Source: an uncultured Desulfobacteraceae bacterium
GTDB taxonomy: Bacteria; Desulfobacterota; Desulfobacteria; Desulfobacterales; Desulfobacteraceae
Direction: 5' to 3'
Assembly (NCBI GenBank): GCA_913041495.1
Contig: CAJWHT010000028.1
Coordinates: 1 to 40,352, forward strand
Length of the DNA stretch: 40,352 bases
Both the position numbers and the translations under genes were made by a program. Below are positions 1 through 29,860 of this stretch, one piece after another (within the stretch, counting starts at the first letter, position 1; each line of letters starts with the position of its first letter). The notes under the pieces were generated by a model. It made no database searches and was not told the DNA's origin. It saw only the letters and a list, made by a program, of their open reading frames with translations.

Positions 1-598
1 TGAGACCGGGGTGGACAACCTTCTGGTCTTCACCGAAGACTACCGGATTTCAGGTGCGACCCTCCAGGAAGACATGTTTTTCCACGTGGATTCAGGCAAG
101 CTTGGGTCAGTGCTGGATCATCTGAAGCAGGGGGTGACCATTGAAGGCAACGAGCTGCCGGAGAAGCTGGACTTTACCGTGGGCTCCGGCGTTGAAACGC
201 CCTGGGGCAGGAACATGCCCAAACGGGGTATGGAGGAGATGGAGGATATGATCAATGTGGGTGCGGGCTATTTTCTGACCACCCCCATCTTTGATGTGGA
301 TCAATTCGAAAAGTTCATGAAGCAGGTCAACCCCTTCAGGGTGCCTGTCATCGCCGAGGTGATGATCCTGAGAACCGCCGGCATGGGTAAATTTTTGAAC
401 CGTCATTTTAAATCCGGACTGGTGCCAGAATGGGTGATCCAGAAACTGATGACAGCACCGGATAAACAAAAGGCAAGTATCGAGCTGTTTGCAGATACGG
501 TGGCAAGTTTAAAGGACATCTGCCAGGGGGTGCACATCATCACCATCGGCGGAGAAGACAAACTGGCCGACTATCTGAACGCGGCTAAACTAAGGTAA
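1..598 (+). CDS. MetF-like methylene-tetrahydrofolate reductase family protein (5' end outside window)
   Basis: The reading frame is open from the first bases of the window to a TAA at 596-598, so the gene starts upstream; the GTG at position 11 is probably an internal Val codon. About 198 residues of the C-terminal part are visible. The stretch GYFLTTPIFDVDQFEKFM aligns by eye with FIQTQCIFNMEKFRDFM of the complete MetF at 7758-8693, and the following MILRTAGMGKFLN matches that protein's GVTPMKNAGMANFM. This is the beta/alpha-barrel pattern of the MetF family. It is the first visible gene of the C1/Hdr operon and is separated from hdrCB by 158 bp. Two MetF-type proteins in one locus suggests either a second isozyme or a specialised subunit; which one is catalytic cannot be decided here. 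Confidence 0.8.
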   Translation, partial: ETGVDNLLVFTEDYRISGATLQEDMFFHVDSGKLGSVLDHLKQGVTIEGNELPEKLDFTVGSGVETPWGRNMPKRGMEEMEDMINVGAGYFLTTPIFDVDQFEKFMKQVNPFRVPVIAEVMILRTAGMGKFLNRHFKSGLVPEWVIQKLMTAPDKQKASIELFADTVASLKDICQGVHIITIGGEDKLADYLNAAKLR

Positions 599-756
599 AC
601 CAAGGATGCCGGGAATTGCGCTTAGGCGAACCTTCGGATACGGCTTACACGCGTAACTCATTCTGGAACAATTCTGATCTGATCTGCTCTCTTTTTGACC
701 TGATTTAATCTCAATAAAAGACAATTCGTTGCGGCAACCGTGAAGGAGACACTTTT

Positions 757-2043
757 ATGGTTGAGGCAATCAAAATCGACAGGCTGGACGTCGAACTCAA
801 AGACGAGGTCCTGGACAAGATACCGGATGCGAACTTCGATCTCTGTCTGACCTGCGGCACGTGTACGGGGGGATGCCCCGCCACCGAGCAGTTCGGAATG
901 GATCCCAGAAAGCTGATTCGCATGCTCAACTTCGGGATGGATGATGAAATCATCAAATCCGACTGGAAATGGGTCTGCTCCATGTGCGGCCGCTGTCAAC
1001 TGGCCTGCCCCATGAACATCAACATCCCCAAACTCATCTTCAACATCAGAAATAAAGTTCCCAGAGATAAACGGCCCAGGGGTATTTTGGGCTCCTGTGA
1101 CCAGCACATCAGGACGGGCAGCGCCATGGGCGCAGCCAAGGAAGATTTTGAATTCACCGTTCTGGACGTGGCCGAGGAAATCCGCGAAGACCACGCAGGG
1201 TTTGAAGACCTGGAAGTCACCGTGGACCGGGTCGGTGCCCAAATGGTGCTCAACCAGAACTCCAGGGAACCGGTTACCGAGCCCGAGGAAATGGGACCCC
1301 TGTGGAAGGTACTTCACACCGTGGGTGCCGACTGGACTTATCCGTCCGTCATGTGGGCCGGAGAAAATTACTGCATGTTCCTGGCCGACGATGAAGGCTG
1401 GAAATATATCATCGAGGAGTTTGTCCTTCACGTGGACAATAACCTGAAAAGTCCCCTGGTGGTCAACACCGAGTGAGGGCACTCATACTTCGCGATCCTG
1501 GAAGGATTGCGCAAATTCAACATCCCTCACAAGTTCGAACTCATCACCATTATCGAGCTTTACGCCCAGTGGATCAGGGAGGGCAAACTGAAGGTCAACA
1601 GTGACTGGAATAAGGAAATAGGTGCCAAGTTCACGGTTCAGGATCCCTGCAATATCGCCCGGAAGAGCGGCTCCAACAAGATCGTTGATGATCTTCGGTT
1701 TGTGGTCAAAACCGTGGTGGGCGAGGAAAACTTCATCGACACCGTGCCCAACCGCATCAACAATTTTTGCTGCGGCGGTGGCGGCGGCGCGCTCCAGGCA
1801 GGTTTCCCGGAACAGCGCCGGGCATACGGCAAAATTAAGTACGATCAGATCATGGCAACCGGTGCGGATTACGTGATCGCGCCCTGCCATAACTGTCACG
1901 GCCAGATCGAGGATATCGGTCATCACTATGGCGGCAATTACCACGTGGTCCATCTCTGGACCATCCTTTGTCTTGCCATGGGATGTCTGGCAGATACGGA
2001 ACGTACCTATCTCGGGCCTGACCTGGCCGAGGTCGGTTTATAA
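757..2043 (+). CDS. hdrCB: HdrC-HdrB fusion protein (HdrD/DsrK-like), selenocysteine-containing
   Basis: Ferredoxin-like and cysteine-rich-domain subunit of a heterodisulfide-reductase-type complex, 428 residues if the in-frame TGA at 1474-1476 is read as selenocysteine (residue 240). The N-terminal half has two 4Fe-4S motifs, CLTCGTCTGGCP (about residues 29-40) and CSMCGRCQLACP (about 75-86), as in HdrC. The C-terminal half carries one CCG domain: DPC, FCCGGGGG and PCHNCH. The TGA falls in NTE-U-GHSY, where DsrK/HdrD-like proteins have ECGH, and the frame continues without a shift to the TAA at 2041-2043. A SECIS-like hairpin follows. The start has a GAAGGAG ribosome site. Without recoding, the first part would lack the whole catalytic CCG domain and the second would lack a good start. 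It probably passes electrons between HdrA and the MetF/MetV module. Confidence 0.9.
1489..1514 (+). promoter_or_regulatory. SECIS-like hairpin in hdrCB
   Basis: Just downstream of the TGA at 1474-1476, GCGATCC (1492-1498) pairs with GGATTGC (1504-1510) around the loop TGGAA; outer pairs C1491-G1511 and TT-AA lengthen the stem past a one-base bulge. The loop GG lies about 23 nt after the TGA. This fits the bacterial SECIS pattern of a short stem with G in the first two loop bases 16-37 nt from the UGA. Function is inferred from position and shape. Confidence 0.75.
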
Positions 2044-2057
2044 CAAGGAGGGATGCA

Positions 2058-5000
2058 ATGGCAAAAAACGGTAACGGGTCGGTAATGGTTGTCGGTGCCG
2101 GCATTGCCGGTATCCAGGCATCCCTGGATCTGGCGGATTCAGGATATCTGGTATACCTGGTGGACAAAAATACGGCCATCGGCGGAACCATGGCCCAACT
2201 GGATAAAACCTTTCCCACAAACGACTGCTCCATGTGTATTATTTCCCCCAAGCTGGTGGAGGCAGGAAGGCATCTGAACATCGAGCTGCTCACCATGTCG
2301 CAGATCGAAAGTGTGGACGGAGAGGAAGGGGATTTCACGGTGAAAGTCCGGGAAAACCCAAGATTCATAGATACGGAAAAATGTACGGCCTGCGGTGAAT
2401 GCTCAAATGTCTGCCCGGTGGAACTGCCCAGCCAGTTCGATGAGGAGTTGCGGGACAGAAAAGCGGCCTTCAAACTCTATCCCCAGGCCATGCCCAGCGC
2501 CTATTCCATCGAGAAAAAAGACAAGGCCCCCTGCCGGCTGACGTGTCCGGCCGGACTCAACGTCCAGGGCTACGTCCAGATGGTGAAAGAGGGTAAGTTC
2601 AAGGAGTCCCTTGAAATCATCATGGAGCAGCTGCCGCTGCCGGGTGTTCTCGGCAGGGTCTGCCCCCATGAATGCGAGGACGCCTGCCGCAGATGCCAGG
2701 TGGATCAGCCCGTGGCCATCCGTGATCTGAAACGGCTGGCGGCGGACAACTTCGACCCCAGGGAGGTCGCAATACCCTGCGCGGAAAAAATCGGCAAGAA
2801 AGTGGCTGTCATCGGCTCGGGCCCCGCAGGGCTCTCTGCCGCCTACCACCTGGCCCGCCAGGGGGTGGACGCCACCATCTTCGAGGCGTTGCCAAAAGCC
2901 GGCGGTATGCTCAGGGTCGGTATTCCGGACCATCGGCTGCCACCGGAAGTCCTGGATAAAGACATCGAGGTGGTCACCAACCTCGGAGTGGATATTCAAT
3001 TCAACACCCGTTTGGGCAAGGATTTTACCGTAGACAGCCTTCTGGCCGACGGATTTGAGGCTGTTTTCCTCGGGTTGGGTGCCCACAAGGGCATTGAGCT
3101 GGGGATCCCCGGAGAGGATCTTTCCGGCGTTCGCCAGGGGGTGAAATTTTTGAAAGAACTCAACCTTAAAGGCGCCACCGAAGTGGGAAAAAAGGTGGGG
3201 ATTGTCGGCGGCGGCAATGTCGCCATTGACGTGGCAAGGTCCGCCGTGCGTCTGGGAGCCGAAGAAGTGACCATCCTATACCGCCGGACCCGCAAGGAAA
3301 TGCCGGCCTGGGAGGAGGAGATCTGCGCGGCCGAAGACGAAGGGGTTAAAATTACCTATCTTGCGGCACCCCAGGAGATTCTCGAAGACGACGGCCGGGT
3401 TTGCGGCGTGCGGGTGATCAAAATGGAACTGGGGGAACCCGATGCCTCGGGGCGTCGGCGTCCAGTCCCGGTCCCGGGCTCCGAATACGACATCGAGATA
3501 GACCAGCTTATCCCTGCCATCGGACAGCGGCCGGACATCTCGGTTCTCGAAGACCTGGCAGATATTAAAATCACCCGGTGGGATACCACCGAGGTCAACC
3601 CCCTGACCCTGGAAACCGACCGGCCCGGCGTATTTGCCGGCGGCGATCTCCAGACAGGGCCTGGTGTGGCCATTTCCGCCATTGCCGCCGGTATGGAGGC
3701 CGCCGAGTCTATCACCCGCTATCTCAAGGGTGAGGACATGGAAACGGGCAGGGAACTGCCGGTGGTGGAAGAACCTGTGTACCGGCCGGTGGAAGAGAGC
3801 TGGCCCATTGAAAACCGCTATAAGATGCCGGAACTGCCTGTGGCGGAACGGGCCGGCAATTTCAGCGAGGTGGAACTGGGCTATGCCGTGGAAGAGGGGC
3901 AAAAGGAAGCGGCCCGCTGTATCAACTGCGGATACTGCTCCGAGTGTATGCAGTGTGTGGACGCCTGTCTGGCCGATGCGGTCAGTCATAACATGCTGGG
4001 CAAGGTCCACGATATCAACGTGGGTGCCATTATTATGGCCCCTGGCTTTGCCCCCTTTGAGCCGGAAAAGCTGGTGACGTATTGTTACGGCCACAGTCCC
4101 AATATCATGACCTCCTTGGAGTTCGAGCGGGTGCTCTCGGCTTCCGGTCCCTATGCCGGCCACCTGGTCCGGCCTTCGGACAACAAGGAACCCAAGAAGA
4201 TTGCCTGGCTCCAGTGTGTGGGCTCCAGGGACATCAACAAAGGTGACAATGCCTACTGCTCAGGTGTCTGCTGCATGTATGCCAACAAGCAGGCGGTCAT
4301 TGCCAAGGAGCATGCGGACTACGATCTGGACTGTGCCATATTCTTCATGGATATGAGAACCCACGGCAAAGAGTTCGACAAGTACAACATCCGGGCCCAG
4401 GATGACAACGGGGTCCGCTTTGTCAGATCCCGCATCCACTCGGTATTCCCGGAACCCGGGGATAAGTACCGTCTGGTGTACTCCTCCGAGGCCGGAAGCA
4501 CCGTGGAAGAGATCTTCGACATGGTGGTCCTTTCCATCGGCCTGGCCCCCAACAAGGACGCCCAGATGCTGGCGGACAAGATGGGGATAGAGCTGAACAG
4601 CCACGGGTTTGCCGACACCGGAAACCTCCAGCCCGTGACCACCAGCCGGAAGGGGATTTACGTCTGCGGTACCTTCCAGGAACCCAAGGACATCCCCGGT
4701 TCTGTCATGGAAGCCTCGGCCGCAGCCGCCACGGCTGTGATGAACATGAAAGATGCCCGCTGGTCACGAACCCGTACCAAGGAATTGCCGCCGGAAAGGG
4801 ATTTTTCCGGCATGGCCCCCAGGATCGGGGTGTTTGTCTGCAACTGCGGCATCAACATCGGCGGGGTGGCGGATGTCCCGGCGGTCCGGGATTATGCCAA
4901 GACACTGCCTTACGTGGTCCATGTGGAGGACAATCTTTTCACCTGTTCCCAGGATTCCCAGGATCATATGAAAGAGGTCATCCAGGAAAACGATATCAAC

Positions 5001-6569
5001 CGGGTGGTGGTGGCATCCTGCTCACCGCGGACCCATGAACCCCTGTTCCAGGAAACCATCCGGGATGCCGGCCTGAACAAGTATCTCTTTGAGATGGCCA
5101 ATATCAGGGATCAGAATACCTGGGTCCACATGAACGAACCGGAAAAGGCCACGGAAAAGGCCAAAGACCTGGTCCGCATGGCTGTAGCCAAGGCGGCTTT
5201 TGTGGAGCCGTTGCACCAGGTGGATCTGCCCATCAAGAAGTCGTTGCTTATCGTTGGTGGCGGTGTCTCCGGCATGGAAGCGGCGCTGAACGCGGCTTCC
5301 CAGGGAGTGGATGTCCATCTGGTGGAAAAGGCACCGGTGCTGGGCGGCATTGCTAACCATCTTAACTCCACATGGAAGGGGGAACCCATCCGGGACTATC
5401 TGGCGCATATGATCGACGCCACACGCTCTTCGGATGCCATTACCGTTCATATGGAATCAGAGGTGACGGGCACCACAGGTTCCATGGGTAACTTCATCAC
5501 CACCGTTGCCCCGATTAATAAGGGAGGCGGAAATGAATTTTCCATTGAACACGGTGCCGCCATCATCGCCACGGGCGGCATGGAGTTTAAACCCGAAGAG
5601 TATATGTACGGTGATCATCCGGATGTCCTTACCCACCTGGATATGGACGCGGCTTTCCGGGAAGAAGACCCGCGGGTGGAGGCGGCCAAAAAAATTGTCT
5701 TCGTCCAGTGTGTGGGTTCCCGGAACGAGCAGAATCCATACTGTTCCAAGGTCTGCTGTACCCACAGCCTGAAGTCGGCGATCGCCCTCAAGGAGATGGA
5801 CCCCCGCAAACGGGTTTATGTGGTGTACAGGGATATAAGGTCCTACGGGTTCCGTGAGGATCTTTACCAGAAGGCCCGCAGCTTAGGTGTTCTTTTTATT
5901 CGGTACGACCTGGAGAAGATGCCGGAATTGAAACTGGACGCTGAAGGCAACCTGGCCTTTACGGTCCTGGACCATGTCCTCCAGATTCCGGTGCTTATCA
6001 ATCCGGATCTGGTGGTGCTGGCCACAGGGATTGCCCCGGGAGACAACAAGTCTCTGTTCGAGAAGTTCAAGATTCCGGTCAATGCCGAAGGCTTCCTGGT
6101 GGAGGCCCACGCCAAGCTGCGGCCGGTGGATTTCGCCTCGGACGGCCTTTTTGTGGCAGGGCTGGCCCATTATCCCAAACCCCTGGAGGAAAGTATTGCC
6201 CAGTCAAGGGCGGCAGTGGCCCGGGCCATGACCATCCTCTCCAGGGATTCCCTCAAGGTCGGGGGCGTGGTGGCGGATGTCACCAAGGAGAAGTGTGCGG
6301 TCTGCCTGACCTGCGTTCGGACCTGCCCTTACTCCATCCCCTTCATCCACGAGGATGGCTATGCCAAGATCGATGCCAGCGAGTGCCACGGATGCGGTGC
6401 CTGTGTGGCGGAATGTCCGGGCAAGGCCATAAAACTGAACCATTTTACAGACCAGCAGCTGATTGCCAAAACCGATGCCCTGTTTCAAGACGGTGCAGAA
6501 GAAGAGGCGGAAGGCGGCATCATGAAACCCGATAAACAGGAGGAAGTAAGCTATGACGGTAGGATTTGA
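2058..6569 (+). CDS. hdrA: Double HdrA with inserted GltD-like NAD(P)H-binding module
   Basis: FAD/Fe-S core of the complex, 1503 residues against roughly 650 for a single HdrA. Order: HdrA FAD fold (VVGAGIAGIQASLDLADSG, about 10-28) with CSMC; 4Fe-4S motif CTACGECSNVCP (about 109-120); a GltD/NfnB-like block with N-terminal cysteines (CRLTCP to CEDACRRC, about 155-215), FAD site GSGPAG (about 251) and nucleotide site GGGNVA (about 382); CINCGYCSECMQC (about 622); remainder of the first HdrA with CVGSRD and CSGVCC; a second complete HdrA from about residue 920 (VCNCG, GGGVSG at about 1066, CVGSRNEQNPYC); and two C-terminal 4Fe-4S motifs (KCAVCLTCVRTCP, ECHGCGACVAECP). The start has AAGGAGG, 14 bp after hdrCB. 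In known Hdr systems HdrA bifurcates electrons at its FAD; the GltD block suggests NAD(P)H as donor or acceptor. No frameshift is seen at the module joins. Confidence 0.93.
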   Translation: MAKNGNGSVMVVGAGIAGIQASLDLADSGYLVYLVDKNTAIGGTMAQLDKTFPTNDCSMCIISPKLVEAGRHLNIELLTMSQIESVDGEEGDFTVKVRENPRFIDTEKCTACGECSNVCPVELPSQFDEELRDRKAAFKLYPQAMPSAYSIEKKDKAPCRLTCPAGLNVQGYVQMVKEGKFKESLEIIMEQLPLPGVLGRVCPHECEDACRRCQVDQPVAIRDLKRLAADNFDPREVAIPCAEKIGKKVAVIGSGPAGLSAAYHLARQGVDATIFEALPKAGGMLRVGIPDHRLPPEVLDKDIEVVTNLGVDIQFNTRLGKDFTVDSLLADGFEAVFLGLGAHKGIELGIPGEDLSGVRQGVKFLKELNLKGATEVGKKVGIVGGGNVAIDVARSAVRLGAEEVTILYRRTRKEMPAWEEEICAAEDEGVKITYLAAPQEILEDDGRVCGVRVIKMELGEPDASGRRRPVPVPGSEYDIEIDQLIPAIGQRPDISVLEDLADIKITRWDTTEVNPLTLETDRPGVFAGGDLQTGPGVAISAIAAGMEAAESITRYLKGEDMETGRELPVVEEPVYRPVEESWPIENRYKMPELPVAERAGNFSEVELGYAVEEGQKEAARCINCGYCSECMQCVDACLADAVSHNMLGKVHDINVGAIIMAPGFAPFEPEKLVTYCYGHSPNIMTSLEFERVLSASGPYAGHLVRPSDNKEPKKIAWLQCVGSRDINKGDNAYCSGVCCMYANKQAVIAKEHADYDLDCAIFFMDMRTHGKEFDKYNIRAQDDNGVRFVRSRIHSVFPEPGDKYRLVYSSEAGSTVEEIFDMVVLSIGLAPNKDAQMLADKMGIELNSHGFADTGNLQPVTTSRKGIYVCGTFQEPKDIPGSVMEASAAAATAVMNMKDARWSRTRTKELPPERDFSGMAPRIGVFVCNCGINIGGVADVPAVRDYAKTLPYVVHVEDNLFTCSQDSQDHMKEVIQENDINRVVVASCSPRTHEPLFQETIRDAGLNKYLFEMANIRDQNTWVHMNEPEKATEKAKDLVRMAVAKAAFVEPLHQVDLPIKKSLLIVGGGVSGMEAALNAASQGVDVHLVEKAPVLGGIANHLNSTWKGEPIRDYLAHMIDATRSSDAITVHMESEVTGTTGSMGNFITTVAPINKGGGNEFSIEHGAAIIATGGMEFKPEEYMYGDHPDVLTHLDMDAAFREEDPRVEAAKKIVFVQCVGSRNEQNPYCSKVCCTHSLKSAIALKEMDPRKRVYVVYRDIRSYGFREDLYQKARSLGVLFIRYDLEKMPELKLDAEGNLAFTVLDHVLQIPVLINPDLVVLATGIAPGDNKSLFEKFKIPVNAEGFLVEAHAKLRPVDFASDGLFVAGLAHYPKPLEESIAQSRAAVARAMTILSRDSLKVGGVVADVTKEKCAVCLTCVRTCPYSIPFIHEDGYAKIDASECHGCGACVAECPGKAIKLNHFTDQQLIAKTDALFQDGAEEEAEGGIMKPDKQEEVSYDGRI

Positions 6570-6978
6570 ACCGAAAGTAGTCGCATTCTGCTGCCAGTAC
6601 TGAGCGTACGCAGCAGGGGACCTGGCAGGTTCCATGAGACTTTCCTATCCTGCGGACATCAAGGTGATCCAGGTGCCGTGTACCGGCAGGGTGGACATCA
6701 TCCATCTGCTCAACGCCATCGAAGACGGTGCTGACGGGGTGTATGTCGCCGGCTGCCTCGAAGGGGAGTGCCATTACCGGGAAGGCAATCTCAAGGCCAG
6801 AAGAAAGGTGACCTATGTGAAAAAGGTGCTCACCGATCTTGGAATCGAGCCCGAACGGGTGGAGATGTACAACCTCTCCTCGGCCCAGGGCGCACGGTTT
6901 GCAGAGATTGCCAACGAGATGGCGGAAAAAATAAAGACTCTCGGTCCAACGCCCCTGGCAAAGGATTCCGCAGCATAA
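6553..6978 (+). CDS. mvhD: MvhD/FrhD-type electron-transfer subunit, selenocysteine-containing
   Basis: Small [2Fe-2S] subunit that links HdrA to a redox partner, 141 residues with TGA at 6601-6603 read as selenocysteine (residue 17). The ATG at 6553 follows AGGAGG and overlaps the end of hdrA by 17 bp, so the gene is translationally coupled. The N-terminus reads FCCQY-U-AYAAGDLAGS, matching the family pattern FxCxWCxYxGADLAG; the second Cys of the CxxC is replaced by Sec. Downstream come the other family cysteines, QVPCTGRVD and GCLEGECHYREGN, which shows that the frame after the TGA is authentic. A start at ATG 6634 would remove the first metal-binding motif. In methanogens MvhD bridges hydrogenase and HdrA; here no hydrogenase gene is next to it, so the partner is probably MetFV or a formate dehydrogenase or hydrogenase encoded elsewhere. 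Confidence 0.95.
6617..6633 (+). promoter_or_regulatory. SECIS-like hairpin in mvhD
   Basis: GGGACCT (6617-6623) pairs with AGGTTCC (6627-6633), seven pairs including one G-U, closing the loop GGC at 6624-6626. The first loop G is about 20 nt after the TGA at 6601-6603. Placement and loop base agree with bacterial SECIS elements read by SelB. It lies in coding sequence and is independent evidence for recoding. Confidence 0.75.
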
Positions 6979-6996
6979 CAGATACGAATGATTCAG

Positions 6997-7024
6997 GACC
7001 GGCCGGAAACGTTTTTGGCCGGTC
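6997..7024 (+). other. Intercistronic hairpin between mvhD and metV
   Basis: GACCGGCC (6997-7004) and GGCCGGTC (7017-7024) form a perfect eight-pair stem with a 12-nt loop, in the 89-bp gap between mvhD and metV. There is no T-run after the 3' arm; the five Ts lie in the loop. A full terminator is therefore unlikely. It may stabilise or process the operon mRNA and separate expression of the Hdr part from the MetVF part. Confidence 0.6.
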
Positions 7025-7067
7025 TCGAACCCCAAAAATCTGAACCCAAATAAACGGAAGGTGACCT

Positions 7068-7745
7068 ATGATAGTTGCTGATCGTAAACCCATAGAAGAA
7101 CTTTTAGGGATGGTGGAAGACTGTAAAAAGATCCTTGTGGTCGGGTGCAAGGGCTGCGTGACGGTCTGTAATGTCGGCGGCCTCAAAGAGGTCGAAGTTC
7201 TGGCCGCCACCATGAAAATCGCAAGGAAGAAAGCGGGGAATCCCCTGGAGATTGCCGAGCATGTACTGGAACGCCAGTGCGACCGGGAATACGTCTCCCA
7301 GCTGGGTGAAGAAGTGAACGACTATGACGCCGTTCTCTCCATGGCCTGCGGTGTCGGCCCCCAGTTCCTCTCTGAAATGTACAAGGAGCAGTCCTTTTTC
7401 CCGGCGGTGAACACCACCTTTTTCGGAGGGGCCACCCAGCACGGTGTCTGGGAGGAGCGTTGTGCCGGCTGTGGCACCTGCGGCATCCACATGTTCGGCG
7501 GGTTATGCCCCATTGCCCGCTGTGCCAAAAGCCTTCTCCACGGCCCCTGCGGCGGCTCATCCAACGGGATTTGCGAGGTGAACAAGGAAACCGAGTGCAT
7601 CTGGGATTCCATCGTCAAGAAAAAGATGGAGGCAGGCCAGTTGGAAGATCTCCTTGGGGTGAAAAACTTCAAGAGCTGGAAAACGGCAAGGGACGGCGGA
7701 CCGAGACGGTCCATCAGGGAAGAACTGGTACAGGGGAACATATAA
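7068..7745 (+). CDS. metV: MetV, zinc/Fe-S-type partner subunit of methylene-tetrahydrofolate reductase
   Basis: 225 residues. The N-terminus, ILVVGCKGCVTVCNVGG (about 21-38), is the conserved Cys region of MetV-like proteins; the C-terminal part has CAGCGTC, GGLCPIARCAKSLLHGPCGG and GICEV (about 133-175), the family's cluster of cysteine ligands. In acetogens MetV forms a complex with MetF and is needed for reduction of methylene-THF with Hdr-type subunits. The start ATG follows GGAAGGTGACCT; metF begins 12 bp after the stop. The context, directly after Sec-MvhD and before MetF, supports a MetFV-Hdr-MvhD complex. Confidence 0.9.
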   Translation: MIVADRKPIEELLGMVEDCKKILVVGCKGCVTVCNVGGLKEVEVLAATMKIARKKAGNPLEIAEHVLERQCDREYVSQLGEEVNDYDAVLSMACGVGPQFLSEMYKEQSFFPAVNTTFFGGATQHGVWEERCAGCGTCGIHMFGGLCPIARCAKSLLHGPCGGSSNGICEVNKETECIWDSIVKKKMEAGQLEDLLGVKNFKSWKTARDGGPRRSIREELVQGNI

Positions 7746-7757
7746 GGAGGTGATGAG

Positions 7758-8693
7758 ATGAGTGAGTTAAAATCAGGCAGTAACCTTGAAAAAGTACTTG
7801 CGGCCGGCCACTTCGCCTTCACCGGGGAATGCGGCCCCCCCAAAGGCGCCAATGTTGAACACCTTGTGGAAAAGTTCCAGCACCTCAAGGGGAATGTGGA
7901 CTGCGTCAACATGACTGACAACCAGACCGCCGTGGTCCGGATGTCCTCCATGGCCGGTTCCGCCCTCATGGTGAACGAAGGTCTGGAGCCCAATTTCCAG
8001 ATGGTCTGCCGGGACCGGAACCGCCTGGCCATGATGTCCGATATCCTGGGGGCCTATGCCCTGGGGGTGCGGAACATGCTCTGCCTTTCCGGAGATCATC
8101 AGACCTTTGGCAACCACCCGGAGGCCAAGAACGTCCACTGCATCGATTCCATGCAGCTCATCGCCATGGTCAAAAAGATGCGGGACGAGGGCAAGTTCCT
8201 CAATGACGAAGACATTGATGTCCCGCCCAAGATGTTCATCGGTGCGGCCTGCAATCCCTTTGCAGACCCCTATGAGTTCCGCCCCTACCGCCTGGCCAAC
8301 AAGATTGAGGCAGGTGCGGACTTCATCCAGACCCAGTGCATCTTCAACATGGAAAAATTCCGGGACTTCATGTCAAAAGTGGTGGACATGGGCCTTCATG
8401 AGAAGTGCTATATCCTGGCCGGCGTCACCCCCATGAAGAATGCGGGTATGGCCAATTTCATGAAGAAGTTTGTCCCGGGCATGGATATTCCGGATGAACT
8501 CATCAAACGCCTCAAAGGCGTGGAGAAAAAAGACCAGGCCGAAGAGGGCATCAAATTCGCCCTGGAGCAGGTGGAGGAGTTCAAGGAGATGGAAGGGGTG
8601 GCCGGCGTCCATATGATGGCCATCGAGTGGGAGCACAAGGTGCCCGAGATCGCGGAGCGGGCCGGTGTCCTGCCCCGGCCGGTGATTGATTAA
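7758..8693 (+). CDS. metF: 5,10-methylenetetrahydrofolate reductase
   Basis: 311 residues, a normal length for MetF. It reduces methylene-THF to methyl-THF using FAD, the last reductive step of the methyl branch of the Wood-Ljungdahl pathway; in acetyl-CoA-oxidising sulfate reducers it can run in reverse. Recognisable stretches are FTGECGPPKGAN near the N-terminus (the catalytic-Glu region), GVRNMLCLSGDH (about 98-109), FIGAACNP, and GADFIQTQCIFNMEKF (about 191-206). The start has the strong ribosome site AAGGAGGTGATGAG. It is the last gene of the operon before a terminator. The first partial gene of the window is a paralogue. Confidence 0.93.
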   Translation: MSELKSGSNLEKVLAAGHFAFTGECGPPKGANVEHLVEKFQHLKGNVDCVNMTDNQTAVVRMSSMAGSALMVNEGLEPNFQMVCRDRNRLAMMSDILGAYALGVRNMLCLSGDHQTFGNHPEAKNVHCIDSMQLIAMVKKMRDEGKFLNDEDIDVPPKMFIGAACNPFADPYEFRPYRLANKIEAGADFIQTQCIFNMEKFRDFMSKVVDMGLHEKCYILAGVTPMKNAGMANFMKKFVPGMDIPDELIKRLKGVEKKDQAEEGIKFALEQVEEFKEMEGVAGVHMMAIEWEHKVPEIAERAGVLPRPVID

Positions 8694-13796: not shown

Positions 13797-16700
13797 TCAT
13801 TTTTCGTGAAACGTATGATTCAATATAGAGGAAGGTGCGGGCTTTGACAATCTGAAACTCAATAATTTGACGTCATCTGCGATATACAGGATCAAGGGGA
13901 TCATGATCAGGGTAACCGGCGTGGCGATTAATTCGCCGAAGGCCAGGGAAATGGCTGCCGGGATAAGGTATTGGGCGTTTTCACTGGTTTCGGACATCAG
14001 GGGTAAAAGGCCGCTCACCGTGGTGGCAGTGGTAAGAAACACCGCACGAAACCGGGAGGTGCCCGCAGCGACAAGGGCCTGGGGGACGGGCATCCCTTCC
14101 GTCCTAAGATCGTTAAACCGGGTGAGCATTACAAGGCTGTCGTTCACCACGACACCGGCCACCCCCAGCATCCCGAAGAAAGACAGGATACTTAAGGGAT
14201 AGTCCATAATACGGTGCCCGAAGGCTGCTCCCACAAATCCGAATGGAATCACCGACATGATAACCAGGGGCTGCCAATAGGACTTCAACGGGATGGCCAG
14301 CAGGGCGTAAATGGCCAGGCAGATGAATATCAGGGCCTTGATCATTCCGGATTTAATGCCGGCGATGTCTTCCAGTTCCCCGCCCTCGGTGACGGAGAGC
14401 TCCGGATAGCGTGCGGCAAGCTCCGGCATTATCGTGTTTTCGAAAGTTGCCATGACTTCTGTGGGACTGTTAAGCGTTTTGTCTATGGCCGCCCCCACAG
14501 TCGCGGTGCGCCGCCGGTTTTTACGGTGCACGGCACCCGGGGCGGTTTCCGTTCTGATTTCGGCCACGGCCGGCAGGGGTACCCGTTGGCCCTGGGGTGT
14601 CCGGATCCTGGCATTCATCAGGTCTCCCATGGTGCGGCGGACCTCTTGCCTGTACTTGACGAATACTTTTACCTCGCTGCCCCGCCGCAGGAACCGCTGG
14701 ACTTCAAGGCCGCCGAAGGCATCCCCGATCTGGCCGGCCAGATCGGAAATGGTCAGTCCCAGGTGCCGGGCATAGGGTTTGAGGATCAGGCGGATCTGGG
14801 GCATGCCCGTATCCAGGTCAGAGTGAATGTCTTTTACACCGCCAATGTCGGCAAGGGCCTCCATTATTTCATTTACCGCACCGGACAGCAGGGGCTGGTC
14901 TCGGACGGAGACGTCCAGTTCAAAACCGCCGGCCGTATCAAATGTGCCGCTGAAGGTCAGTTTTCTTACCCCTTCCAGTTCACCGGTTTTTTCGCGCCAG
15001 CGATTCAAGGTCTCCATGGTATCCATCTGCCGGACCGCCTCGGGCTGGAGTTCCGCCCAGATCTCCACGGTTGCGGCATCTTCCAGGGCAGACATGATCT
15101 TTGCGATGGGCGGCAGGACATCCGTGCCGACAGAGGCCCCTGCCTCCCGGTTGACAGACAGGGCGGCATCTTCGATGATATCCAGGTTTTTCCGGGTCAG
15201 GTGCATGGGGCTGCCTTTGATCATTTCCATGTTCACGGTGATGAACTGCCCGGGAACCTCCGGGAAAAATACGGTACGGATCTCATTGGTGTAAATCATG
15301 CCCATGGCGGTGATTGCCAGAGCGGTCAGCGCCACAAGACTGGCATATCGATGGGCCAGGGCGATTCGCAGAACCTGTGTGTATATTTTGCGGTTGGCAT
15401 GGTCAAGGCCTTTTCGGGCCGTGCGCTGCACGTTTCCCCATATCCGGGCGGCAAAATTGGATTTTCGAGTGTTGGGTGCGGTCAGGGGTATGCTGGTAAG
15501 GTGTGCGGGCAGAATCAGCTTGCTCTCCAGAAGCGATACGAAAAGCGACGTGATGACCACCACGGAAAACCCGGCAAATATGCGGGCCAGGTCGTTGTCG
15601 ATGAGGAGCAGGGGGTAAAAGGCCGCCATGGTGGTGGCGCATCCGAAAATAGTGGCCGTGGACACCTTGCCCACCCCGGCCAGGGTGCCGGCCACAGGAT
15701 CAGGTGTCTTCTGCCGTTCTTCGAATACGCTTTCCCCGACAACAACCGCATCGTCCACCAGGATACCCAGGACTATGATCAAGCCGAAGGTGGTGATATC
15801 GTTCAGCGAGTGGTCCAGAAATCCCGGGCCCATCAGGGTCAAGGCACCGCAAACGGAGATAGGGATGCCCATGGCCACCCAAAAGGCCAGGCGAAGGTTG
15901 AGGAACAGGGCCAGGAGCACGAATACGATGGCAAGTCCCTGGATGGCATTAGTCACCAGCAGGTTCAGTCGGGAGGTCATGTAGATGCTGGATTCCCCCC
16001 ATATGTCCACCTGGAGACCTGCGGGCAGGTCCGGCCGGATACGCTTTACGACCCGGTGGGCAGCCTCGCTGACTTCCAGCAGATGTCCCTTTTTGCTGGT
16101 GAATATCATCATGCCCACAGAGGGTTTTCCCTGGTAGCGTGCAAAAAAATCGTATTCTCCGAACCCGTCGGACAGATCTGCCACATCCCCGAGTCGGATC
16201 ATGCTGCCGTCGGCCCGGGCCTTGATGGGGATCTCTTTGAAATCGGCGGTTTCCATGGCTTTTCGGTCCGCCCGTATGGAGATGATGCCGTCCCGGCTTT
16301 TGAGAATACCGGTTTTGTAATCCAGGGAATTCATCCCTATGGCCTCGGAAAGACCGGAAAGGCTCAGGCCTAATGCTCCCAATTTTTCTTCATCAACACT
16401 GATAATGATCTGCCGGGGCAGGAGGCCGAAGGTGCCGATCTTGGCGATTTTCGGATCGGCCAGCAGGGCTTCTTTTACCCGCAGCGCGGTCTCCTGAAGG
16501 GCGTGGGTATCCGTCTGCCCGTATACCTGGACCAGCAGGGCTTCGATGGTCAGTTCATCCCGGGTAATGGCCGGGCGTTCTGCCCGCCCGGGCAGCGTGG
16601 TGATCCCGTCGATCCGGGTTTTGATTTCGTTTTGAAACCGGTCCATATCCATGCCGGTTACCTTTTGAACCGTAACGGTGGAATATCCTTCATAGGAAGC

Positions 16701-16949
16701 TGCGGTGATTCTTTTGATGCCCGGCATGCCTTCCAGGGCCATTTCAATCCGCCGGGATATGCCCCGGTCCACCTGTTCGGCTGTGGCACCCGGATAGGCG
16801 GTTTCAATGGTGACGGAGGAGGGCGGCAAGGGAGGGAAGCCTTCGATGCGCATGGTGGTCATGGTGAAGAGTCCGGCCACCAGGATCAGCCCCATGGCCA
16901 GGTTGGCTGCCACAGGATTTTTGATGAACCATTCGGAGAAGTTTTGCAT
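13797..16949 (-). CDS. RND-family efflux pump (AcrB-type inner-membrane transporter)
   Basis: 1050 residues, the usual length for AcrB-like pumps. It begins FSEWFIKNPVAANLAMGLILVAG, a first membrane helix, followed by a periplasmic loop, a block of helices (about 335-490), a second large loop and a final block of helices (about 860-1020), i.e. the duplicated 6+6 plan. The fourth helix reads FGLIIVLGILVDDAVVVGES, with the paired Asp residues used for proton transfer. It acts with the adaptor and outer-membrane factor encoded just upstream in the same operon; only 3 bp separate it from the adaptor stop. The substrate cannot be told from sequence. Confidence 0.95.
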   Translation of the reverse strand: MQNFSEWFIKNPVAANLAMGLILVAGLFTMTTMRIEGFPPLPPSSVTIETAYPGATAEQVDRGISRRIEMALEGMPGIKRITAASYEGYSTVTVQKVTGMDMDRFQNEIKTRIDGITTLPGRAERPAITRDELTIEALLVQVYGQTDTHALQETALRVKEALLADPKIAKIGTFGLLPRQIIISVDEEKLGALGLSLSGLSEAIGMNSLDYKTGILKSRDGIISIRADRKAMETADFKEIPIKARADGSMIRLGDVADLSDGFGEYDFFARYQGKPSVGMMIFTSKKGHLLEVSEAAHRVVKRIRPDLPAGLQVDIWGESSIYMTSRLNLLVTNAIQGLAIVFVLLALFLNLRLAFWVAMGIPISVCGALTLMGPGFLDHSLNDITTFGLIIVLGILVDDAVVVGESVFEERQKTPDPVAGTLAGVGKVSTATIFGCATTMAAFYPLLLIDNDLARIFAGFSVVVITSLFVSLLESKLILPAHLTSIPLTAPNTRKSNFAARIWGNVQRTARKGLDHANRKIYTQVLRIALAHRYASLVALTALAITAMGMIYTNEIRTVFFPEVPGQFITVNMEMIKGSPMHLTRKNLDIIEDAALSVNREAGASVGTDVLPPIAKIMSALEDAATVEIWAELQPEAVRQMDTMETLNRWREKTGELEGVRKLTFSGTFDTAGGFELDVSVRDQPLLSGAVNEIMEALADIGGVKDIHSDLDTGMPQIRLILKPYARHLGLTISDLAGQIGDAFGGLEVQRFLRRGSEVKVFVKYRQEVRRTMGDLMNARIRTPQGQRVPLPAVAEIRTETAPGAVHRKNRRRTATVGAAIDKTLNSPTEVMATFENTIMPELAARYPELSVTEGGELEDIAGIKSGMIKALIFICLAIYALLAIPLKSYWQPLVIMSVIPFGFVGAAFGHRIMDYPLSILSFFGMLGVAGVVVNDSLVMLTRFNDLRTEGMPVPQALVAAGTSRFRAVFLTTATTVSGLLPLMSETSENAQYLIPAAISLAFGELIATPVTLIMIPLILYIADDVKLLSFRLSKPAPSSILNHTFHEK

Positions 16950-16952
16950 GGG

Positions 16953-19802: not shown

Positions 19803-20318
19803 TTATCTCTCTTTGGCAAGCGCCGCCATCCAGACGGTAACCATGTCTTCGCCGAACAGATAAAAAGAGATGTCCAATGATTGATAGGCCGGCCGCCGGC
19901 ATACGGCCACGGCGATCTTTGCCGCTTCCTCAGGCGGATAGCCGTATACCCCGCAGGAAATGGCGGGAAATGCGATGGAGTTACATCCGTTTGCCAGCGC
20001 CAGATCCAGGCTGTTTTCATATGCCGAAGAAAGCAGCCGTTCAGGTTTCGGATCAAGCCCATACCTTGGCCCCACCGTATGGATCACAAATTGGGCTTTT
20101 AAATCCCCGGCCGCTGTCAGCCTGGCCTCACCGGCCGGGCAGCGCATACCGTCTTTTTCCGGTACTTCCCGGCATGCCGCCAGAAGCTTCGGCCCGGCGG
20201 CCCTGTGAATGGCACCGTCCACCCCGCCGCCTCCCAGCATCCGGGAGTTGGCTGCATTTACAATAGCATCAACTTCGGCTTGTGTGATATCCCCTTTGAT
20301 AATTTTAATGGTTCCCAT
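19803..20318 (-). CDS. Macro-domain protein (ADP-ribose binding, O-acetyl-ADP-ribose deacetylase-like)
   Basis: 171 residues from ATG 20318, preceded by AGGGAAAAAAAGGC; the longer reading from 20375 would cover the palindrome at 20356-20373. Macro-domain signatures: [17 protein letters not shown] (about 8-24), [15 protein letters not shown] (about 29-43), and [13 protein letters not shown] (about 119-131). Single macro domains of this YmdB-like length hydrolyse ADP-ribosyl or O-acetyl-ADP-ribose groups. It lies next to a broken toxin gene but nothing ties the two functionally. Confidence 0.92.
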
Positions 20319-20355
20319 ATGCCTTTTTTTCCCTATTCTACAACCGGTGAAAACA

Positions 20356-20373
20356 GATTCAAATATTTGAATC
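20356..20373. promoter_or_regulatory. Perfect 18-bp palindrome upstream of the macro-domain gene
   Basis: GATTCAAATATTTGAATC is fully self-complementary and lies 38 bp upstream of the macro-domain start at 20318, inside the gap to the vapC stop. It is a plausible operator; no matching regulator is identified in the window. Confidence 0.5.
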
Positions 20374-20394
20374 AAATGTCTGTATAGTGCCGAT

Positions 20395-20884
20395 TTAATT
20401 TGCCCAGTTTTCGATTCTCAACGTCGGGACCCTTTTGAATTCTTTTTCATTGTTTGTGAAGAGTGTCAGGTTTCGACTTAATGCATGAGCCGCAATCAGC
20501 AGATCAAGTGGGCCAATTATGTCACCCTGATTTTCAATTTGAGAACGAATCCCACCATAAAATTGTGATGCCTGTTCATCATATGGCAAGATTTGAAATG
20601 GGGTAAGAAATTCTTCAAGGCGTTTTGAATTTTGCTCACGGTATTTGCTCTTTGACACACCATGCTGGAGTTCGGAAACACTAATGCTTGATATCGCAAT
20701 TTGCCCGACTTCCATGTTTTTAAACTTTTGAATAACGGCCATGGGCCGCCCTTGAATGTTATTCGGTGTGCCCACAACGAACTATGAAAGATTCCGCCTG
20801 GTTGTGTGGTTCTTTCATATAAACAGCCGGGGGATGTTCGTTCATAATGTAGATACATATGTTGGTATCAATCAAAAAGCTCAT
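20395..20884 (-). pseudogene. vapC: VapC-type PIN-domain toxin, interrupted by an 88-bp insertion
   Basis: On the minus strand the ATG at 20884 opens MSFLIDTNICIYIMNEHPPAV, the typical VapC N-terminus with the first catalytic Asp, but this frame stops at 20759-20761. The rest of the toxin is in another frame ending at 20395: VIQKFKNMEVGQIAISSIS, SELQHG, GPLDLLIAAHA, LFTNNEKEF, with the remaining PIN acidic residues. Joining Val21 to the matching AV-IQKF removes 88 bp (about 20737-20824) and gives 133 residues, a normal VapC length. 88 is not divisible by three, so the gene is frameshifted and probably inactive. No VapB antitoxin gene is seen upstream; the start lies inside the end of the membrane-protein gene. 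Confidence 0.85.
20737..20824. repeat. 88-bp insertion with inverted repeats inside vapC
   Basis: The limits come from comparing the two vapC frames and are good to a few bases, because similar GC-GTT-AT sequence occurs at both junctions (possible short target duplication). Inside it TATGAAAGA (20783-20791) and TCTTTCATA (20811-20819) are perfect inverted repeats 19 bp apart. No coding capacity. It looks like a small non-autonomous repeat (MITE or REP-like), but no second copy was found in this window. Confidence 0.55.
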
Positions 20885-25005: not shown

Positions 25006-25070
25006 CATATAAAAACTGAACGGGAATCAGTCGTCGGGTCGCACCAACATAAATCAAAGGAGAAAGCATT

Positions 25071-26336
25071 ATGAATGAGGTTAAAAATCTTGGATGGCGG
25101 GTCACTTTTGCCGGGCTGGGTATCAATCTGGCGCTGGGTATCCTTTACACCTGGAGTATCTTCAAGATGTCCATCAAGGAGTCCATCGTCGCAGGTGACG
25201 GTGTCTTTAACTGGAGCCTGGCCTCGTTAAATGATCCTTATGCGGTCTGCTGCCTGGTTTTTGCATTTGCCATGATTTTTGCCGGCAGGGTACAGGACAA
25301 AACCAGCCCTAAGTTTACCGCGGTTATCGGCGGTGTACTCACCGGTGCCGGCCTTATTCTTATCGCGCTCTCCACGTCCTGGATCGTCTGGATATTAGGC
25401 TTTGGCGTACTGATGGGCCTGGGCTTGGGCTTTGGCTACGCCTCTGCCACACCGCCGGCAATCAAATGGTTTCCCCCGGCGAAAACCGGCATGATCGCTG
25501 GTATCGTTGTGGCAGGTTTTGGCCTGGCTTCCGTGTATATTGCGCCGTTGGGCACGTTTCTGATCAACAAGTTCGGTCTGAGCCAGTCCATGATGATCTT
25601 CGGTATTGCTTTCTTAGTCGTGGTTTCCATTCTGGCACAGTTCCTGGTCAATCCGCCTGAAGGCTATGTGCATCCCGATGCAAGGGCCACGGCCACCACA
25701 CCTGCTGCCCCAACAGGCACGGATTTCTCACCGGCCCAGATGATGAAGACAGGGGCCTTTTACAAGCTTTGGATTATGTTTTGCGTGGGGTCCGGCGCCG
25801 GTTTGATGATCATCGGCGGCGTGGCCGGTATGGCCAAGTCCGGCATGGGATCGCTTGCCTGGGTGGTTGTGGCGCTGATGGCTGTGGGCAATGCCTCCGG
25901 GCGAGTGGCTGCCGGTATGCTCTCCGACAAGATCGGCCGGGCGAATACGCTTTTCATTATGCTGCTCTTCCAGGCCATGGTGATCTTCTCCCTTATGTTT
26001 ATTACCCCGGGACAGGTCATACTCCTGGTACTGGCCGCCACCTTTATCGGGTTTAACTACGGTTCCAACCTATCTTTGTTCCCCTCTGCCACCAAAGATT
26101 ATTTCGGTATGAAGAATTTCGGTGCCAATTACGGCCTGGTCTTTTCTGCCTGGGGGGTTGGCGGATTTATTTTTCCGAGAGTATCCCAGATGATCGTGGC
26201 CTATACCAACAGTCCGAAAATGTCCTACATCCTGGCTGCCGGCCTGCTGCTCACAGGGGCCGTCCTGGCATTGCTGACCAAGGTGCCTGAAGCGGTGGAA
26301 GATGATTCCCTTGTTGCTGTTCCTGAAAAAAACTAA
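25071..26336 (+). CDS. OFA-family major facilitator transporter (monocarboxylate type)
   Basis: 421 residues with about 12 hydrophobic helices. The start NLGWRVTFAGLGINLALGILYTWSIF and the later VQDKTSP, GFGYASATPPAIKWFP and SDKIGRAN (second half, about 285) are typical for the oxalate/formate antiporter (OFA) branch of the MFS. ATG follows AAAGGAGAAAGCATT. Regulated by the sigma-54 promoter above and followed after 45 bp by acetyl-CoA synthetase, it most likely imports acetate or a similar short monocarboxylate; the substrate is an inference from context. Confidence 0.9.
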   Translation: MNEVKNLGWRVTFAGLGINLALGILYTWSIFKMSIKESIVAGDGVFNWSLASLNDPYAVCCLVFAFAMIFAGRVQDKTSPKFTAVIGGVLTGAGLILIALSTSWIVWILGFGVLMGLGLGFGYASATPPAIKWFPPAKTGMIAGIVVAGFGLASVYIAPLGTFLINKFGLSQSMMIFGIAFLVVVSILAQFLVNPPEGYVHPDARATATTPAAPTGTDFSPAQMMKTGAFYKLWIMFCVGSGAGLMIIGGVAGMAKSGMGSLAWVVVALMAVGNASGRVAAGMLSDKIGRANTLFIMLLFQAMVIFSLMFITPGQVILLVLAATFIGFNYGSNLSLFPSATKDYFGMKNFGANYGLVFSAWGVGGFIFPRVSQMIVAYTNSPKMSYILAAGLLLTGAVLALLTKVPEAVEDDSLVAVPEKN

Positions 26337-26381
26337 GCTGCTGAACCTGTAAATCTAAAAATAGAAGAAAAGGAGATCCTT

Positions 26382-28346
26382 ATGAGCGAGTACAAATTTC
26401 ATGCACCGGACGAGTTTCGCAAGAATGCCTGGATTCAGAACATCGATCAGTACAAGGAAATGTATCAGCAGTCCATAGATGATCCCGAGGCTTTTTGGGC
26501 AAAGATCGCGGACGAGTTCTACTGGGAAAAGAAGTGGGATAAGGTCAGGGACTTTAATTATAGTATCTCCAAGGGGCCGGTGTTCATCGAATGGTTCAAA
26601 AACGCCAAGACCAATATTACCTATAACTGCCTGGACCGTCATTTGGCCACCCGGGGGGATCAGACTGCCCTGATCTGGGAGGGAAATAATGTGGGCGAAG
26701 ACCTGGAGATCTCCTACAGCCAGCTCCATGAAAAAGTCTGCCAGTTTGCCAATGCCTTGAAGGAACGGGGGGTCGGCAAGGGAGACCGGGTGGCCATCTA
26801 TATGCCCATGGTGCCCGAACTGGCCGTCACCATGCTGGCCTGTGCCAGAATCGGCGCCATCCATTCCATCGTTTTCGGCGGTTTTTCCTCCGAAGCGCTT
26901 GCCAATCGGATCCTGGATTCCTTCTGCAAGGTCCTGGTCACCACCGACGGGGTCATGCGCGGCGCCAAGGCGGTTCCCCTGAAGGGCAACGCGGATGCGG
27001 CCCTGGCCATGTGCGAGGAAAAGGGCCATAAAGTGCAGACCTGCTTTGTGGTCAAACGGACGGGTTCCGAAGTGGAAATGTACCCGGACCGGGATGTCTG
27101 GTGGCATGAAGCGGCTTCGGCACAGCCCAAGGACTGCCCGGTGGAATGGATGGATGCGGAAGATCCCCTTTTCATCCTATATACCTCCGGTTCCACCGGC
27201 ACCCCCAAAGGGGTTCAGCACAATGTGGGCGGCTATATGGTCTACACCGGCACGACCTTCAAATATATATTTGATTACCATGACGGTGACATTTACTGGT
27301 GTACGGCGGATATCGGCTGGGTAACGGGCCATTCCTACATCATTTACGGTCCCCTGTCCCAGGGTGCCACCAGCCTCATGTTTGAGGGCATCCCGACCTA
27401 TCCGGACCCCGGCAGGTTCTGGGCCGTTGTGGACAAATGGAAGGTTAACCAGTTTTACACCGCTCCCACAGCGATCCGGGCGTTGATGGCCCAGGGGGAG
27501 GAGTGGGTACAAAAGTATGATCTGTCATCGCTCCGGCTGCTCGGCTCCGTGGGGGAACCCATCAACCCCGAAGCCTGGCGCTGGTATCATACGAATGTGG
27601 GCAAGGAACGCTGCCCCATCGTGGACACCTGGTGGCAGACGGAAACCGGCGGCATCATGATTTCCCCGATTCCATACGCCATTGACCAGAAACCGGGATC
27701 TGCCACCCTGCCGTTCTTTTCCGTCAAACCGGTACTTCTCAACGAAGAGGGGCAGGAGATTGATGGGGCCTGCGACGGCATTTTGGCCTTGAAAGAGCCG
27801 TGGCCCGGCCAGATGCGAACCGTTTACAACAACCATGACCGGTTTGAGAAAGTCTACTTCCAGATGTTCGACGGTTACTACTTTGCCGGTGACGGGTGCC
27901 GCAGGGACGAGGACGGGTACCATTGGATCACCGGACGGGTGGATGATGTCATCAACGTTTCCGGCCATCGCATGGGGACTGCGGAGGTGGAATCCGCCCT
28001 GGTCAGTCATCCCGACGTGGCGGAAGCGGCGGTTATCGGCTATCCCCACGACATCAAGGGGCAGGGCATCTATGCCTTTGTGACCCTGATCGTGAGTTCA
28101 ACGCCTTCCGATGAGCTGATGGCCGATCTCAAGGCCCATGTCCGCAAAGAGATCGGACCCATTGCCACTCCGGATATTCTTAATTTCGCCCCGGCATTGC
28201 CCAAGACCCGGTCCGGAAAGATCATGCGCCGGATCCTAAGAAAAATTGCCACGGACGAGTTCGATCAGCTCGGCGATATCTCCACCCTGGCTGATCCCGA
28301 CGTGGTGGGCAACCTCATCAACAGCCACAAGGAGTTGACAAAATAA
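26382..28346 (+). CDS. acs: Acetyl-CoA synthetase (AMP-forming)
   Basis: 654 residues, the normal length. It converts acetate, ATP and CoA to acetyl-CoA, AMP and PPi in the cytoplasm. Motifs: [26 protein letters not shown] (shown by span, about 141-166), AMP-binding loop [11 protein letters not shown] (about 266-276), WWQTETGG (about 416-423), [13 protein letters not shown] (hinge region), and [10 protein letters not shown] with the catalytic, acetylation-regulated Lys at about 613. ATG follows AAAAGGAGATCCTT. In operon with the OFA transporter; in acetate-oxidising sulfate reducers it feeds acetate to the oxidative acetyl-CoA pathway that the operon at 757-8693 serves. It could also accept propionate. 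Confidence 0.95.
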
Positions 28347-29750: not shown

Positions 29751-29860
29751 TTCAGCCGATTTTCGTGATATACAAAATGGTTCGCTGCATAAATTGCAAA
29801 ATTGGCAGTTGACCCCTGGTTTTATAAACTAAATTGAGGAAAGAAACGAATAATAATCCA

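Follow-up and report, generated by a model that had tools for sequence, protein, structure and literature searches.

A methylene-tetrahydrofolate reductase operon with Hdr and MvhD genes and two probable selenocysteine codons in an uncultured Desulfobacteraceae bacterium

How anaerobes pass the electrons of methyl-tetrahydrofolate (methyl-THF) to NAD(P)+ is an open step when sulfate reducers burn acetate and fatty acids, and likewise in the syntrophic oxidation of acetate. The methyl-THF/methylene-THF couple lies at about −200 mV and that of NAD+ (NAD(P)+) at about −320 mV, so that methyl-THF cannot reduce NAD+ unaided under standard conditions. Here we analysed an operon at the start of C28, one of the 328 contigs that make up the 5.77-Mb genome of an uncultured bacterium whose named relatives are Desulfobacteraceae; the whole 40,352-nt stretch is referred to as the window. 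From the first base, the + strand carries a divergent MetF-like gene (MetF2, cut), a gene joining HdrC- and HdrB-like parts (HdrCB), an HdrA fusion, MvhD, MetV and MetF (Table 1). An earlier note, made from the sequence alone, had read here a Moorella-type MetFV–Hdr–MvhD operon with two selenocysteines and an NAD(P)H module in HdrA, and all the parts that it named were found. The functions that together mark a type IV (Hdr-type) methylene-THF reductase (MTHFR) cluster, namely metV, metF, hdrA, mvhD and hdrB/C, are present side by side, with HdrB and HdrC as one protein. We favour, with moderate confidence, the explanation that the operon encodes such an enzyme run mainly backwards, in which methyl-THF would be oxidized and its electrons confurcated with those of reduced ferredoxin onto NAD(P)+. 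Such an enzyme may carry out the most difficult redox reaction of acetate oxidation.

The HdrA fusion and the conservation of the operon

The first HdrA copy of the fusion carries a GltD/NfnB-like FAD and NAD(P)H module of approximately 490 residues (about 150–640), in agreement with the earlier note, and a second HdrA copy follows at about residues 920–1473. In the protein, the motifs GxGxx[GA] and CxxCxxCxxxC each occur four times, and its gene has no internal TGA. An E/K pair is a published marker of bifurcating HdrA flavins (PMC9430772). In copy 1 this pair is E690/K744 and was kept in all 51 sequences compared, that is, the window and the loci matched at both ends, with the exclusion of L051 and L067 (stop or frame break); the mapping rests on structure-chain alignments in which the offset between Protein Data Bank (PDB) chains was computed by hand. 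The GltD motif YRRxxxEMPA, considered for its bearing on the choice between NAD and NADP, was detected in 46/46 sequences with the insert. Five loci lack the insert (L088, L091, L094, L097 and L098); L092 appeared short but is contig-cut and has a GltD match. Moorella HdrA has been described as a 162.8-kDa protein with two TrxR-like domains, one of them interrupted by a GltD domain (PMC9430772), and has been reported to oxidize NADH. The fusion in the window has the same second TrxR-like domain and GltD insert, as compared with that description and not with the Moorella sequence, and its architecture is therefore not new.

Conservation of the gene order in relatives had been set beforehand as a check, and the order proved to be conserved. 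Among 65 loci, 38 had room for the whole operon, and the complete order MetF2–HdrCB–HdrA fusion–MvhD–MetV–MetF was observed in 24 of these, 23 with the GltD insert and one (L088) without; HdrCB stood alone in two. Desulfospira joergensenii (L056) is one of the relatives that have the complete order. Of the 59 loci that extend 1.6 kb or more upstream of HdrCB, 54 have MetF2 directly before this gene, and the other five, which are 61–67% identical, are probably paralogues.

The operon also goes with the carbon monoxide dehydrogenase/acetyl-CoA synthase (CODH/ACS; PF03598). Among the matches listed, a close HdrCB orthologue was detected, by hand, in 38 of 59 family genomes (36 full and two contig-cut), and CODH/ACS in 37/38 genomes with the orthologue as compared with 9/21 without it (Fisher, 2.8e-6); for full orthologues only, the counts were 35/36 and 11/23 (Fisher, 1.2e-5), both values being uncorrected for kinship and several genomes being incomplete. 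Within the genus, two of 12 genomes, the present one and G028, have both CODH/ACS and the orthologue, and the other 10 have neither, again among the matches listed.

Table 1. Coordinates of the operon features in the window
Feature	Position	Strand	Description
MetF2	2..598	+	C-terminal 198 aa of a divergent MetF-like subunit; PF02219, 1.7e-10
HdrCB	757..2043	+	428 aa; HdrC + HdrB-like (DsrK/TmcB/HmcF-like) in one piece; Fer4_17 and CCG domains
HdrCB TGA codon, probable selenocysteine	1474..1476	+	Codon 240, residue 240 (NTEUGHSYF)
HdrCB SECIS-like hairpin	1491..1511	+	9-bp stem around CCTGGAAGG; starts 17 nt from the first TGA base
HdrA fusion (HdrL-type)	2058..6569	+	1503 aa; final TGA is the stop
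MvhD (FlpD family)	6553..6978	+	141 aa; PF02662, 9.5e-50; probable selenocysteine at residue 17 (CCQYU)
MvhD TGA codon, probable selenocysteine	6601..6603	+	Codon 17
MvhD SECIS-like hairpin	6617..6633	+	7-bp stem around CCTGGCAGG; starts 16 nt from the first TGA base
MetV	7068..7745	+	PF12225, 3.3e-31
MetF	7758..8693	+	PF02219, 2e-43; TQ motif kept (alignment with MetF2 rows and alignments to solved MTHFRs)

Selenocysteine codons and the HdrCB protein

The HdrCB frame is open only if its internal TGA is read through, and MvhD, the start of which overlaps the 3′ end of the HdrA fusion gene, likewise needs read-through of its own TGA. In the aligned sequences, the window included, HdrCB codon 240 is TGA in 57/65 and TGC in 8/65 (one further locus, L106, ends before this codon). 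MvhD codon 17 is TGA in 30/39, TGC in 8/39 and TGT in 1/39, a count that takes in only loci in which MvhD was matched under the thresholds applied. Downstream of the TGA, both genes carry a hairpin resembling a selenocysteine insertion sequence (SECIS), with the apex CCTGGnAGG. A stem of at least 7 bp was detected in 56/57 TGA sequences of HdrCB but in only 2/8 Cys sequences (control windows, 77/587), and in 28/30 TGA sequences of MvhD against 0/9 Cys sequences (control windows, 74/518). The apex motif alone separates the two classes well in HdrCB (56/57 TGA, 0/8 Cys) and poorly in MvhD (30/30 TGA, 5/9 Cys). Since the compared sequences are related, these codon and hairpin counts are not independent events. 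The genome contains complete matches for tRNA-Sec (74.6 bits; gathering score, 47) and selA (605.3 bits). For selB, positions 1–268 of 581 were matched over the cut-off (294 bits), and another contig matches positions 306–580 below it (42.6 bits). An Rfam search of the window gave no matches.

Because the aligned codons are TGA or Cys only, the downstream hairpin goes with TGA and the selenocysteine (Sec) machinery is present, both TGA codons most likely encode Sec, and the two selenocysteines of the earlier note stand as probable ones. The alternative, that these codons are real stops in decayed genes or products of assembly errors, has nothing in its favour apart from the TGA codons themselves. 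Against it stand the restriction to TGA or Cys in 65/65 HdrCB and 39/39 MvhD sequences, the hairpins, the Sec machinery and the alignment of relatives across the TGA at protein identities of up to 94%; we regard it as highly improbable, and gene decay in particular is ruled out by the codon conservation and hairpin counts. Loci L102 and L103 combine TGC in HdrCB with TGA in MvhD, and the reverse pairing was observed in L076, L082, L083, L084, L093 and L104, indicating that the two Sec sites change independently.

Based on 27 sequences, paralogues included, the HdrC-like part of HdrCB has eight invariant cysteines; also invariant are C206 and position 240, the latter being U or C. The HdrB-like part has one complete CCG site (C298, C338–C339, C377 and C380). 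Pfam likewise found one CCG domain, and the two complete CCG motifs of an HdrB with two noncubane cluster sites were not found in HdrCB. The closest NCBIfam profiles are HmcF (167.7 bits; cut-off, 750), TmcB (166.2; 735) and DsrK (117.4; 400), and all three equivalog cut-offs are far from being reached. A predicted model (pLDDT, 82.5), which informs on the fold only and not on clusters or residue distances, resembles EtfD of M. smegmatis (E, 3.5e-9) and methanogen HdrB (E, 3.8e-6).

MetF2 and the module that follows it in the phylum

MetF2 is incomplete in the window because the window begins at a contig end. Its residues are 89% identical to residues 96–292 of the L045 MetF2, and C59:1–243 matches residues 1–81 of the same copy (85%), with 14 codons unsampled between the two contigs; the first 81 codons thus lie at the end of C59, and the gene is cut by the assembly. 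On C59, the MetF2 start is preceded by a response regulator that includes a helix-turn-helix region (the regulator domains, PF12728 and PF00072, were named on the L187 homologue). MetF2 is 22–25% identical to MetF rows. At the TQ-motif position, Q was found in 8/8 MetF rows and T in 13/13 MetF2 rows, and alignments to solved MTHFRs agree; the glutamine concerned is presumably the folate-binding Gln183 of E. coli. Since MetF2 is without the glutamine that MetF keeps, it is probably no second reductase, and the loss in 13/13 rows weakens its candidacy as a second MTHFR. The second MetF-type gene that had been noted at the 5′ end is therefore present, but it is cut, divergent and without the MetF glutamine. 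A further MetF-like gene, likewise without this glutamine, stands before HdrA in L155 (13843–14712) and L152 (6743–7612); in L155 the order HdrA–MvhD–MetV–MetF lies behind it, a second case of MetF-like genes flanking an Hdr module.

In the phylum, a search at E ≤1e-70 gave 42 MetF2 matches in 39 of 395 genomes, of which 30 were read with 1.5-kb flanks and 13 with long flanks. The response regulator was found upstream of MetF2 in 28/30 matches. The next gene downstream was NuoG/FdhA-like in 20/30, an HdrA fusion in 8/30 and HdrC-like in 1/30, and in 1/30 nothing was recognized; the idea that MetF2 is specific to the Hdr complex of the window is ruled out by the 20 matches with the NuoG/FdhA-like gene. 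Nine of the 13 long stretches have the order regulator, MetF2, NuoG/FdhA-like gene, GltD-bearing gene, MetV and MetF. In three, the regulator, MetF2 and an HdrA fusion were followed up to the stretch end, and one (L185) has the regulator, MetF2, an HdrC-like gene, an HdrA fusion and MvhD, with an HdrB-like frame, recognized by eye, in between. No HdrCB match was found in the nine stretches with the Nuo-type module. In L187, where alone the domains were named, the middle genes are NuoG/FdhA-like, NuoE and NuoF fused to GltD. These gene orders indicate that MetF2 and MetVF can persist while the intervening module changes. Within our preferred explanation, MetF2 would be an accessory subunit that accompanies MetVF even where a different bifurcating module lies between the two.

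The large subunit of the Nuo-type module matched TIGR01591 (formate dehydrogenase) with 462.5 bits, below the cut-off of 666.25. We take the formate dehydrogenase motif to be NVDHCARxCH. Formate was considered as the low-potential partner of this module and rejected, as the aligned 10-residue motif stretch has neither Cys nor TGA in 9/9 copies, and for the same reason we call the subunit NuoG/FdhA-like; 3/9 copies have Cys residues near the stretch. The regulator-to-MetF order of L187 (1857–11633), L186, L188–L191, L195, L196 and L198 resembles a Stn-type module joined to MetVF. The Sporomusa-type Nfn (StnABC) has NuoE, NuoF and GltD/NuoG parts beside metVF (PMC7483475), as in the module of these phylum relatives; its GltD is fused to a NuoG-like part, whereas in L187 GltD is fused to NuoF, and the window itself has no Nuo-type module.

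The predicted electron route and its alternatives

In the proposed mechanism, MetF with MetV would oxidize methyl-THF in the Wood–Ljungdahl pathway of a sulfate reducer, and the electrons would go via MvhD to the HdrA fusion. At the HdrA flavin they would be merged with low-potential electrons from reduced ferredoxin, and electron pairs would then leave through the GltD domain to NAD(P)+ (confurcation); run forward, NAD(P)H would be bifurcated to methylene-THF and ferredoxin. HdrCB would serve as the HdrC/HdrB arm and hold its Sec in or close to its Fe–S site. We prefer this mechanism because the gene order is conserved, the HdrA architecture is Moorella-like with E690/K744 in copy 1, and the operon goes with CODH/ACS, an acetate–CoA ligase gene lying on the same contig. 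It is also preferred because, elsewhere in the phylum, MetF2 often precedes a GltD-bearing module, with MetV–MetF behind it in 9/13 long stretches. In pull-downs from Sporomusa ovata, MetF and MetV contact HdrA, MetF contacts HdrB, and MvhD contacts HdrA, HdrB and MetF (PMC9430772). Confurcation with reduced ferredoxin was proposed earlier for a syntrophic acetate oxidizer with metF and Hdr genes (PMC6295475), and the operon architecture appears compatible with that proposal.

Several observations weigh against this explanation. The Moorella complex was without methylene-THF-dependent NADH oxidation, and the involvement of ferredoxin in it is unconfirmed (PMC8760232); MetVF of S. ovata was purified without Hdr/MvhD (PMC9430772). 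HdrA copy 2 has D1197 (50/51) in place of E, with K1239 in 48/51, whereas copy 2 of Moorella HdrA was published with E and K (PMC9430772). In 12 of the 38 loci with room for the operon, MetF2–HdrCB–HdrA fusion was found without recognized MetV–MetF behind it, five of these having MvhD. The association with CODH/ACS, in addition to its uncorrected kinship and incomplete genomes, has exceptions among the matches listed, since nine genomes have CODH/ACS without the orthologue and one has the orthologue without CODH/ACS. Finally, the operon is one of several Met–Hdr clusters in the genome. HdrA/L–MvhD–MetV–MetF was also found on C142 and, truncated by contig ends, on C18 and C129; G028 has what appears to be the uncut counterpart of C129, preceded by another MetF-like gene. 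Among the matches listed, C4 and C88 each carry an HdrCB paralogue with TGA, and C198 carries one with Cys. We considered whether C198 and C129 might be two halves of a complete second operon with Cys and rejected this, as the two contigs share no end sequence and carry different genes. In L151 of the same genome (3406–4932), MetF and MetV matches lie in one open frame of 508 aa.

The separate purification of S. ovata MetVF also bears on a different possibility, that HdrCB–HdrA–MvhD works as a general module for ferredoxin, NAD(P) and thiols and is no more than co-transcribed with MetVF; MetVF would then take its electrons from ferredoxin alone, as type II enzymes do. Purified type II MetVF enzymes run on reduced ferredoxin, and the paralogous HdrCB–HdrA–MvhD sets L131 and L137 have no MetF/MetV match in the stretch read. 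The paralogous sets L127 and L128 are no example of such independence, since a further HdrA/L set, with MetV, follows a few kb behind them. The conserved gene order, the published pull-downs and the location of MetVF beside HdrA/L- or Nuo-type modules in several clusters of this genome and of the phylum argue in the other direction, and we consider a merely co-transcribed module unlikely.

The character of HdrCB suggests another route, in which HdrA would split the methyl-THF electrons, one going uphill to NAD(P)+ and one downhill via Sec-HdrCB to DsrC trisulfide. Consistent with this, the best NCBIfam matches of HdrCB are HmcF, TmcB and DsrK, the protein has one complete CCG site together with the invariant C206 and U/C240, the genome has three matches to DsrC-family genes, and an HdrL–DsrC–Wood–Ljungdahl link has been proposed for Desulfurivibrio (PMC12142623). 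However, these matches lie far under their cut-offs, the homologous cluster of Moorella operates in an acetogen, and the nine stretches with the Nuo-type module gave no HdrCB match. Such a split is a minor possibility, if a slightly better one than mere co-transcription. A broader proposal, doubtful to about the same degree as the latter, is that MetF2 and the response regulator define an undescribed methyl-THF-oxidizing family whose constant ends, MetF2 and MetVF, are fitted to either of two unrelated bifurcating modules (Hdr/GltD or NuoG/E/F–GltD), and that Sec-HdrCB, in the Hdr version, passes half of the electrons straight to DsrC; if true, the DsrC arm would couple the oxidation of acetate to the reduction of sulfite within the cytoplasm, with no membrane involved.

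The type IV MTHFR of Moorella thermoacetica and S. ovata (MetFV–HdrABC–MvhD) has the same HdrC, HdrB, HdrA, MvhD, MetV and MetF cluster (PMC9430772, PMC6085437) and, in Moorella, the same duplicated TrxR domain with GltD insert (PMC9430772). It differs from the operon of the window, in which HdrC and HdrB form one DsrK/TmcB-like protein, HdrCB and MvhD probably contain Sec, and MetF2 and the response regulator stand in front. In Desulfobacterium autotrophicum, HdrL1–3 are HdrA/glutamate synthase fusions followed by mvhD, as here, and Sec occurs in several Hdr and MvhD proteins, including an HdrD; HdrL1 and HdrL3 themselves contain Sec, unlike the present fusion, and the text examined ties HdrL to no metF (PMC2702500). 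A MetF–Hdr complex was likewise predicted in sulfate reducers from metF–HdrABC of Seep-SRB1g (PMC10553843), a likeness in gene content; the words selenoprotein and selenocysteine are absent from the main text. An Fe–S oxidoreductase-like selenoprotein has the same UGH motif as HdrCB, and the frhA–frhD–hdrA–glpC operon of Deltaproteobacteria has several selenoproteins in one operon, as here; the text examined links neither to MetF/MetV (PMC13188914). The earlier note had suggested an undescribed form of the enzyme. This does not hold for the fused HdrA, in print for Moorella and as HdrL, nor are Sec-MvhD and the UGH-motif selenoprotein new, while the one-piece Sec-HdrCB, Sec-MvhD beside MetVF and MetF2 differ from the known enzyme. 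Among open-access PMC papers, we found none on this combination, on Sec beside MetVF or on the MetF2 module pattern, and these look new within that literature, the parts being known singly.

The confurcation idea becomes testable with a conserved operon in which MetVF is combined with NAD(P)H-linked flavin modules whose make differs between relatives. MetF2 is a conserved partner in this operon, and no description of MetF2 was found in the same set of papers. The two Sec residues would tie selenium to the carbon metabolism of marine sediment bacteria.

The tetranucleotide correlation of the window was 0.92–0.98 with contigs of its own genome and 0.92–0.94 with two loci of other genera, and thus does not discriminate binning. 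Downstream of the operon, an MFS transporter (lactate/oxalate–formate group) adjoins the acetate–CoA ligase (25053–28346), which is consistent with acetate use. The window also encodes a bifunctional sulfate adenylyltransferase/APS kinase (29828–31561), and a frame similar to it by eye follows the operon in L045 (18756–20531). Further genes encode an RND efflux permease (13797–16952) and an O-acetyl-ADP-ribose deacetylase-type protein (19803–20417).

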